Origin: an uncultured Pelagibacteraceae bacterium
GTDB lineage: Bacteria > Pseudomonadota > Alphaproteobacteria > Pelagibacterales > Pelagibacteraceae
DNA length: 64,000 bases
NCBI GenBank assembly: GCA_902558835.1
Contig: CACEFK010000002.1
Span: 1-64,000, forward strand
Direction: 5' to 3'
Numbering within the stretch: position 1 is the stretch's first letter; every line of letters starts with the position of its first letter. This document shows, piece after piece, positions 7,130 through 63,270 of this stretch. The position numbers and the translations under genes were made by a program. A model generated the notes under the pieces. It saw only the letters and a program-made list of their open reading frames with translations, had not been told where the DNA came from and did not search any database.

Positions 7130-8467
7130 TTAAATATTAGCTAATTTATGTTTAATATAATATTTAACATAAAATAGTAACATCAATGATATCAACCATT
7201 GAAAGATAGCCCAAATATAAAAAAAAGTTTTAAAATCTGCATTTAAATACTTTGCAATGTAAAAGGATAAAACTGGCACTATAACATTTCTGGCAATGTT
7301 ATTAACCATAGCTTTCTCAGATTTTTTTAATGCCATAAAAAATCCATTTGATAAGAAAAATATTGGATAAGCAGGTAAAATAAATGCAGAAATCTTAAGG
7401 TACATCGAGCCATGCATAATTACATCTGGATTTGAGGAAAAGAATTTAGGAACAATGTCAGCACTTACAAAAATAACTACACCAGCGATTAACATTATAA
7501 ACAGACCGTATTTTATTGATGTAAAATATGATTGCTCAACTCTATCGTAATATTTTGCTCCTATATTTTGAGCTATGATGGATATTATTGCTGTATTTAT
7601 ACCTAAAACTGGCAACAAAAGAACTTGCTCAATTCTTGTGGCAGATCCATATCCAGCTACAGCGTATTCACCAAATAATCCCACATAAGTAAATACAATA
7701 GTAGCAGCTACTGAATAACCTAATATGGCAATAGTTATGGGCATTGATTGAAAAAATATATTTTTTAGGAAAAAAAATTTAGCTTTGAAATGATCTAAGG
7801 TTATTTGTTTAATTCTCTGGTTATTTAATATTTTTATCAAAATAATTAACAAAGATACTAATTGTGCAATTAAAGTTGCTATTCCAATACCAGTTATTCC
7901 TAATGGTGGGATAAATAAAAATCCAAAAATTAAAATTGGATTTAAAATTATGTTTAAGAAAAAAGAAAATATTAAGACATTTCTATAAGTTTTAGTATCC
8001 CCTTCAGCATGTAAAAACGAATTTAAAGCTACAACTAAAATAAATAAGACCGTACCTAAAAAAATTATATTAATATATTCAAGTCCAAGGGTAGTTACCG
8101 TATTAGAAGAATTCATTAATTGGAATATATTTTCACCAAAAGAAAAACCTAAAATTGATACAACTACTGAAATTATAATTGCATAAATGATGACATTTCC
8201 AAAATAACTTAAAACGTTTTTTTCGTTTTTTTCTCCAATACTACTTCCTATTAATGATGTTCCAGCAACTGTAACCCCAATAGATGTTGCAATAATAATA
8301 AAATATATTGGAAATGACTTGCTCAAAGCAGATAAAGCTTCTGGAGATATTTTTCCTGCATAAAAAGTGTCTACGATTGTATAAAGGGTTTGAAATAAGG
8401 TTCCTATACTTGCTGGTACAGCAAGTCTTCTTACTAACAACGAAACTTCATCTTTTAATAAATTCAT
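7130..8467 (-). CDS. MATE family efflux transporter
   Basis: ~445 aa, 12-TM-like; VRRLAVPASIGTLFQTLYTIVDTFYAG, NSFLHAEGDTKTYRN. Confidence 0.92.
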   Translation of the reverse strand: MNLLKDEVSLLVRRLAVPASIGTLFQTLYTIVDTFYAGKISPEALSALSKSFPIYFIIIATSIGVTVAGTSLIGSSIGEKNEKNVLSYFGNVIIYAIIISVVVSILGFSFGENIFQLMNSSNTVTTLGLEYINIIFLGTVLFILVVALNSFLHAEGDTKTYRNVLIFSFFLNIILNPILIFGFLFIPPLGITGIGIATLIAQLVSLLIILIKILNNQRIKQITLDHFKAKFFFLKNIFFQSMPITIAILGYSVAATIVFTYVGLFGEYAVAGYGSATRIEQVLLLPVLGINTAIISIIAQNIGAKYYDRVEQSYFTSIKYGLFIMLIAGVVIFVSADIVPKFFSSNPDVIMHGSMYLKISAFILPAYPIFFLSNGFFMALKKSEKAMVNNIARNVIVPVLSFYIAKYLNADFKTFFYIWAIFQWLISLMLLFYVKYYIKHKLANI

Positions 8468-55423: not shown

Positions 55424-55499
55424 GCCCTTGTAGCTCAGCTGGTAGAGCAATTGATTTGTAATCAATAGGTCCGCGGTTCGAATCCGTGCGGGGGCACCA
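55424..55499 (+). tRNA. tRNA-Thr (TGT), CCA encoded
   Basis: GCCCTTGTAGCTCAGCTGGTAGAGCAATTGATTTGTAATCAATAGGTCCGCGGTTCGAATCCGTGCGGGGGCACCA. Confidence 0.96.
55450..55471 (+). repeat. Putative att core, left copy (inside tRNA-Thr anticodon arm)
   Basis: ATTGATTTGTAATCAATAGGTC, identical to 63097..63118. Confidence 0.75.
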
Positions 55500-55598
55500 C
55501 TAAAATCTTATTTATTTTCATCAAATTCAAATTTTGCTTTAATTTTTCAAAAATAAAAATTATTTATTAATGCGATAGAAAGGAAGCAAGTAGAACTA

Positions 55599-55626
55599 AG
55601 TGAAGTGAATTTGAAGTGAATTTTAA
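55599..55626 (+). repeat. 28-bp direct repeat, left copy; two tandem TGAAGTGAATT units
   Basis: AGTGAAGTGAATTTGAAGTGAATTTTAA, identical to 62999..63026. Confidence 0.9.
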
Positions 55627-62239: not shown

Positions 62240-62425
62240 ATGGAGATAGGCCGTGTCTGTAAGTACTGTCACGTGAGTGCTTACGTTGCTTATGACAACT
62301 GTGACCCAGTTTATAAAAAAACATTTAAGTTCGAAATTTTACCAGGTGAACACAACAGTTTAGTCTGGGACAAGATAATCAAAATATTTACCAAAAATGG
62401 ATACAAAGTGGAGCTTAAATCATGA
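62240..62425 (+). CDS. Small hypothetical protein (61 aa) with CxxC near N-terminus
   Basis: MEIGRVCKYCHVSAYVAYDNCDPVY...; AGGAG Shine-Dalgarno-like motif upstream; ATGA overlap with next gene. Confidence 0.6.
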   Translation: MEIGRVCKYCHVSAYVAYDNCDPVYKKTFKFEILPGEHNSLVWDKIIKIFTKNGYKVELKS

Positions 62426-62988
62426 AAAGAGTTTTACTTATTATTTTATTACACTTATCTCTATTTTTTATTGTCTTTGCTTACCATGCGCAAGCTGAAG
62501 AAGATGAAATGTGGACAATTGATAAATACGAAAGTTTAACATTTGCAAGAGTATATGGAGAAGTAATTCATGGAGACAGTTTAAATTTCTTTATTCAATC
62601 AAAAGATAACTGTGAAAAAGTTTGGCATAATTTCACTTTTTACACATATGAGCAGCCTGGAGATATAAAACAACTATTAAACAGAAATATACCAATAAAA
62701 ATTAATGAAGAAGAAGTTACTGCTTATGTAGATCATATACAGCCATTTTTAATGGGTTACAGAGTTTTATTATCCTTAGGATCGTTTCCAATTAAAGAAT
62801 ATATTTATAAATTAAATAATTTTTATATTGAGGAACAAAGATTTGAGATTGAAATAATTGATGGGATTGATTTTAAGGCAAGTAAATATTTTGATATATC
62901 AATAAATAGATGGAATTTAGATAAACTCGTACCATCTGTTTTAGAAGCACATAAAAGGTGTAAAGAAATTAAAAATACTGACTCTTAA
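62422..62988 (+). CDS. Hypothetical secreted/periplasmic protein
   Basis: N-terminal signal peptide MKRVLLIILLHLSLFFIVFAYHAQAEE; no family recognised. Confidence 0.7.
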   Translation: MKRVLLIILLHLSLFFIVFAYHAQAEEDEMWTIDKYESLTFARVYGEVIHGDSLNFFIQSKDNCEKVWHNFTFYTYEQPGDIKQLLNRNIPIKINEEEVTAYVDHIQPFLMGYRVLLSLGSFPIKEYIYKLNNFYIEEQRFEIEIIDGIDFKASKYFDISINRWNLDKLVPSVLEAHKRCKEIKNTDS

Positions 62989-62998
62989 ATAAAGTTTT

Positions 62999-63026
62999 AG
63001 TGAAGTGAATTTGAAGTGAATTTTAA
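62999..63026 (+). repeat. 28-bp direct repeat, right copy
   Basis: AGTGAAGTGAATTTGAAGTGAATTTTAA, identical to 55599..55626. Confidence 0.9.
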
Positions 63027-63096
63027 AAACTTCAATAGACAGGACTCAATTAGTTAAGTATTATCAATGTTAATGAAAGGAAAAATAATTAACTTT

Positions 63097-63118
63097 ATTG
63101 ATTTGTAATCAATAGGTC
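63097..63118 (+). repeat. tRNA-Thr anticodon-arm remnant, right copy (putative distal att)
   Basis: ATTGATTTGTAATCAATAGGTC identical to 55450..55471; homology continues weakly as TGCAG vs CGCGG. Confidence 0.75.
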
Positions 63119-63132
63119 TGCAGATATAAATT

Positions 63133-63270
63133 TTACCAGGCTGTTAATTTCCAGCATTCATTGGCGTCTTCAATACGAACGTAACAACCAAGAAAAGACA
63201 TAATTTTAAATGCACAAAAACCTCCAACTAAAATAATGACTACGAACATTATTGGATTAATTTTTTTCAT
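63133..63270 (-). CDS. Small single-TM protein (45 aa), not in ORF track
   Basis: MKKINPIMFVVIILVGGFCAFKIMSFLGCYVRIEDANECWKLTAW; 4-nt gap downstream of the NAD kinase stop. Confidence 0.65.
   Translation of the reverse strand: MKKINPIMFVVIILVGGFCAFKIMSFLGCYVRIEDANECWKLTAW

Follow-up and report, generated by a model that had tools for sequence, protein, structure and literature searches.

The 22-bp repeat found downstream of the tRNA-Thr gene in the window (the whole 64,000-nucleotide stretch of Pelagibacteraceae DNA analyzed here) is probably the attR of a non-autonomous defense island of about 7.65 kb, inserted in tRNA-Thr(UGU) and moved in trans by a satellite integrase. Judged from comparison of sequences, the repeat marks a real insertion at tRNA-Thr, and the island belongs to a large family whose elements stack in tandem at this gene. 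Nearly all members are without the recombinase that movement requires, so they probably borrow it from related virus-satellite elements. The features of the island and its flanks are given in Table 1.

Table 1. Features of the tRNA-Thr island in the window (positions numbered from the first nucleotide of the window).
Feature	Position	Strand	Basis or remark
tRNA-Thr (anticodon TGT)	55424..55499	+	ARAGORN
Element-supplied tRNA-Thr 3' half (attL core)	about 55451-55499	+	49-bp core identical in relatives
Left element end (P-arm side)	55500..55598	+	conserved among class A islands of other genomes
Predicted left arm-type site, 28-bp repeat	55599..55626	+	words GAAGTGAATTT at 55602-55623
Type IIG-like restriction-modification enzyme, 1027 aa	55686..58769	-	Eco57I-type methylase and TaqI_C specificity domain
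SNF2-type helicase with N-terminal PLD-like domain, 1077 aa	58759..61992	-	domain matches
Small ORF, 61 aa	62240..62425	+	no family match
ORF, 188 aa, signal-peptide-like start	62422..62988	+	L088 island has a relative (35%) in this position
Predicted right arm-type site, second 28-bp copy	62999..63026	+	words GAAGTGAATTT at 63002-63023
Right element end (P'-arm side), ends TATTATCAATGTTAATGAAAGGAAAAATAATTAACTTT	63027..63096	+	conserved in other islands
attR core, remnant of displaced tRNA-Thr 3' half	63097..63118	+	22-bp repeat, comparison with relatives
Decayed remainder of displaced tRNA half	63119..63132	+	decayed alike in sister loci L139 and L141, where other elements precede it
Flanking 45-aa ORF	63133..63270	-	directly adjoins intact tRNA-Thr in empty-site relatives

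The repeat ATTGATTTGTAATCAATAGGTC is present as exact forward-strand copies at 55450-55471, within tRNA-Thr, and at 63097-63118, and these are its only exact positions in the 1.09-Mb genome. No third copy was found in the window, even at three mismatches, and none of 100 dinucleotide shuffles gave any match. On its 3' side the identity extends with one mismatch (GGTCYGC) and then ends. The earlier note had described an exact tRNA-Thr repeat 7.6 kb downstream of the intact gene, followed by some further similarity and then divergence, and both points were borne out. In the relative L008, the remnant is whole as far as the CCA end, unlike the decayed window copy, which is therefore short by about 20 bp. 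The far boundary of the island thus carries a direct repeat of the tRNA end, as in other tRNA-integrated islands, and is followed by the 45-aa ORF, which adjoins nadK.

Empty sites, another mark of tRNA-integrated islands, were found in nine SAR11 relatives. The CCA end of tRNA-Thr lies directly against the nadK end in L109 (a 100% complete genome), L111, L112, L113 and L116, where nadK was identified from sequence, and tRNA-Thr lies directly against the 45-aa ORF in L146, L149, L150 and L158. Reading the two repeats as attL and attR of an island, the earlier note had suggested looking for an empty rlmB-tRNA-Thr-nadK site and had held that constant gene content between tRNA-Thr and nadK would contradict the island; gene content at this place varies between relatives, the same flanks enclosing other cargo in L008, for instance, and the attL/attR reading is supported. 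A pattern search detected at least two tRNA-Thr 3' halves in 115 of the 294 genomes having that half, with a maximum of five, and in the loci examined these halves are arranged in tandem, as stacked elements. The right end of the window's type of island (class A, see below) was found in 9 of 399 genomes, so this type is uncommon; the SAR11 genomes compared are mostly incomplete single-cell assemblies.

Just inside each island end lies a second exact direct repeat, of 28 bp (AGTGAAGTGAATTTGAAGTGAATTTTAA), which the earlier reader had not noticed and which occurs nowhere else in the genome. It contains two tandem 11-bp words, GAAGTGAATTT; the left copy is separated from the tRNA end by about 100 bp, the right copy from the core by about 97 bp. 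An exact search of a species-level genome collection with the 22-bp center of the arm pair returned 12 stretches, all from Pelagibacteraceae and all adjoining tRNA-Thr or its remnant. The N-terminal domain of lambda Int binds arm-type sequences and its C-terminal domain core-type sequences (PMC2951348). The attP of such tyrosine integrases has a core with arm-type repeats to either side, and the window island is shown to keep this layout complete, with a tRNA core and two predicted arm sites.

The elements at tRNA-Thr were assigned to two classes by simple end motifs. Class A, to which the window island belongs, comprises elements of 3.5-11.3 kb with arm words about 102-124 bp after the CCA and 97-75 bp before the core; conservation ends just inside the arm words. 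The 43 class B elements measure 0.7-4.2 kb, with words about 57-90 bp after the CCA and 76-57 bp before the core. The 11-bp words of class A are GAAGTGAATTT, GAAGTCTTTTT, TGTAGTGAATT, TGTAGTCTTTT, TGTAGTCAATT and AAGGTGAATCC, and those of class B include TGTGACG, TGTGTTA, TGTGCCA, TGTGTCG, TGTTGTCA, TGTTGC, TGTTACC and others. Every element has its own pairs of words, set at fixed distances from the tRNA core; the words vary between elements and agree between both ends of one element. With the relatedness of elements left uncorrected, the mean end match was 18.4 of 19 in class A (n = 13), against 16.0 after shuffling, and 15.2 in class B (n = 43), against 12.6, and in neither class did any of 10,000 shuffles reach the observed value. 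The ends of several class B elements do not match each other. Most class B elements have a distance of 93 nt between the core and the start of their first gene, and their coding sequence is almost entirely antiparallel to the tRNA (20,936 versus 289 aa).

Cargo differs between the two classes. The window island contains four annotated ORFs of any size, and its pair of large genes recurs in the L067 island, with 44% identity for the restriction-modification enzyme and 42% for the PLD-SNF2 helicase. Class A cargo is largely restriction-modification or otherwise defense-like, comprising type I HsdR, HsdS and HsdM (L064), an AlwI-type system (L066), IIG-like enzymes (L107 and L093), a C5 methylase (L091) and a large helicase (L058); that of L059 and L088 is not recognizably defense. 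Class B elements carry small lipoprotein-like or pilin-like genes, and some encode Mom, SRA or nuclease domains. Two class B cassettes (L100:3577-4380 and L086:1634-3001) encode a Mom-family protein and an SRA-domain protein, both related to DNA modification. Cassettes of L085, L098, L089 and L061 contain up to six paralogous genes with type IV pilin-like starts (GFTLIELLVVVAIIGILAAVGVVAY), as if a pilin repertoire were shuffled at the tRNA-Thr site. A recurrent cluster (L008:7480-12388, L062:12811-17710 and L065:11154-16514) combines a MotA/ExbB-like protein, with weak ZorA similarity, and a staphylococcal-type nuclease; it is a possible unrecognized defense system.

No PF00589 match was found inside the window island. 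At the same tRNA-Thr/nadK site, L079 carries a 7.7-kb integrase-bearing element (L079:5900-13900), probably a phage satellite, encoding an integrase with the Pfam domain Arm-DNA-bind_3, a small helix-turn-helix protein (weak match) and a DUF5906 primase-helicase, most of its ORFs having no family. Its arm words, TGTAGTCAATT, are matched at both ends, in class A positions, and are related to but different from the window's word; no relatives of its integrase were found in IMG/VR or the phage set. The second case, L045 (IMG/VR 3300017731_002668), is an 8.9-kb satellite-like viral contig with an integrase, a terminase small subunit (TerS) and an AAA helicase. Its putative attP holds the full 49-bp tRNA-Thr core (about 7329-7377, minus strand) between paired TGCGGACA words, and the integrase gene starts about 100 bp away. 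Four SAR11 island ORFs are related to L045 proteins. One of them, in a class B cassette of L090, is what is left of an L045-type integrase, its N-terminal 74 residues (66% identical); its distance from the core, 102 bp, agrees with that in L045.

An integrase bearing the window word GAAGTGAATTT was not found; most of the genomes are incomplete single-cell assemblies, so that a helper integrase could be missed. Island end motifs had no exact match in IMG/VR, and a short end-motif search of the phage collection gave weak AT-rich matches and nothing else. Viral contigs with the tRNA-Thr 3' half as a candidate attP were set aside, most of them carrying a complete tRNA gene of another sequence, as were the phage-collection matches, which are just tRNA-Thr genes of unrelated phages. 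Integrases elsewhere in SAR11 (L126, L127 and L131-L133) were also considered as helpers and rejected, as none adjoins the tRNA-Thr core. In L127 (9119-12083), an integrase gene region lies between inverted TGTCACAACTCTGTCACAAC copies with an 11-bp period, which may be arm words of this kind serving a different site. At L126:11128, a tRNA-like 3' half remnant, apparently of tRNA-Met, lies about 0.6 kb from a second integrase gene.

Two sister loci (L141 and L139) have the window's decayed remnant and its 45-aa ORF flank, but other arms to the left of the remnant. Elements have therefore replaced one another here since the remnant decayed, and the 22-bp core contains the point of exchange. This bears on the strongest alternative, still an unlikely one, in which homologous recombination between shared ends and flanks, through natural transformation or transduction, spreads the island and the repeats are relics of an ancient integration. 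The island ends are similar enough to recombine, the host has no cognate integrase, and recombination is frequent in SAR11 (PMC7542561); exchange points within the 22-bp core, arm words matched within an element yet varying between elements, the nine empty sites and the integrase-bearing relatives with the same layout all argue against it. We consider it very improbable that the host's only tyrosine recombinase, a Cre-like protein (317 aa in the window genome), moves the islands. Exactly one PF00589 protein is encoded in most SAR11 genomes searched, array-bearing genomes included (about 307-326 aa, e.g., L073:1456-2409, Cre-like by eye and distant from the island), and in three near-complete genomes it lies about 89 kb from tRNA-Thr. 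However, it has no Pfam arm-binding domain match, one recombinase hardly explains many different arm words per genome, and two other integrases, those of L079 and L045, are located right at the tRNA-Thr core. The SAR11 genomes searched seem to lack a XerC/XerD pair. The idea that the 22-bp copy arose by chance or by duplication of a tRNA fragment, without any tie to mobility, can be practically dismissed, its decayed state being the one point in favor against the shuffles without a match, the same arrangement across many genomes and the empty sites, which already refute it.

Under the preferred reading, movement in trans by a satellite integrase, site-specific recombination at the anticodon region would have placed the island in tRNA-Thr(UGU). 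Comparison with relatives shows that it brought its own tRNA 3' half, so that the tRNA stays whole at attL and the displaced half decays at attR. Most likely, the island is moved in trans by the tyrosine integrase of a related phage-satellite element, whose arm-binding domain recognizes the 11-bp words. The restriction-modification enzyme and the PLD-SNF2 helicase are probably selected as phage defense. Because the displaced half has decayed, clean excision would now leave tRNA-Thr with a broken 3' half. Since pattern search detected only one intact 3' half in the window genome, an assembly 87.5% complete, the host probably depends on keeping the island, save where another element takes its place, as the sister loci suggest.

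Several known systems resemble this family. Cis-mobilizable elements (CIMEs) keep attL and attR, lack integrase and transfer genes and occur in tandem with related elements, as defined in PMC5704250. The window island likewise has both att sites without an internal integrase, and none of its four annotated ORFs is relaxase-like (two have no family match). In contrast to CIMEs, it is related to satellite-type elements and not shown to be ICE-derived, its arm words are diversified and its sister elements go down to 0.7 kb. Tandem ssrA genomic islands of Dehalococcoides are also stacked behind one RNA gene, 15 of them without an integration module (PMC3146451). The two cases share this stacking and the presence of integrase-less members, but a serine recombinase and tmRNA are involved in Dehalococcoides, and tRNA-Thr and tyrosine-integrase-type attP arms in SAR11. 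Phage satellites (P4, PICI) and tycheposons share the tRNA target, and L079 and L045 have integrase and replication genes, L045 also TerS, whereas genes for an integrase, for replication and for packaging are all missing from the window island. The window island therefore lacks the integrase and replication genes of a phage satellite and the tyrosine recombinase of a tycheposon, and shares with the latter, as described in passages of PMC10872708, a tRNA border. According to the same passages, additive flexible islands of Methylophilaceae are marked by tRNA-Lys repeats, which likewise places repeated tRNA ends in a streamlined aquatic bacterium; arm sites, found in SAR11, are unmentioned in those passages.

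Class B also resembles integron cassette arrays lacking an integrase (CALIN) in forming arrays of short cassettes with nearly all genes in one direction, but the recombination site and junctions in SAR11 are a tRNA half with arm sites. Overlap of the att site with the integrase promoter is widespread in tRNA-inserted prophages (PMC2951348), and class B cassette genes may therefore be expressed from an integrase promoter. We tentatively propose, as a conjecture we hold to be somewhat less probable than its negation, that SAR11 has an integron-like, integrase-free cassette system, in which many non-autonomous cassettes and defense islands share one tRNA-Thr target, the pair of 11-bp arm words in each would specify the satellite integrase that serves it, and the cargo gene of small cassettes occupies the integrase-start position of the autonomous element (93 nt versus about 100 from the core), so that the integrase promoter would drive it. 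Islands in tandem at RNA genes, and elements keeping att sites without integrases, are already known. Within the literature searched, the SAR11 family itself, its diversified but end-matched arm words and its connection with satellite-like relatives that carry an integrase at this core appear to be new.

SAR11 are among the most abundant ocean bacteria, and the turnover of their gene-variable regions is unsettled. An earlier survey of these regions found no integron attC sites and one region flanked by tRNA genes (PMC2217521). The tRNA-Thr family provides a concrete, sequence-defined exchange site and a testable arm-word code predicting integrase-element pairing, and it links the turnover of defense genes to phage satellites.
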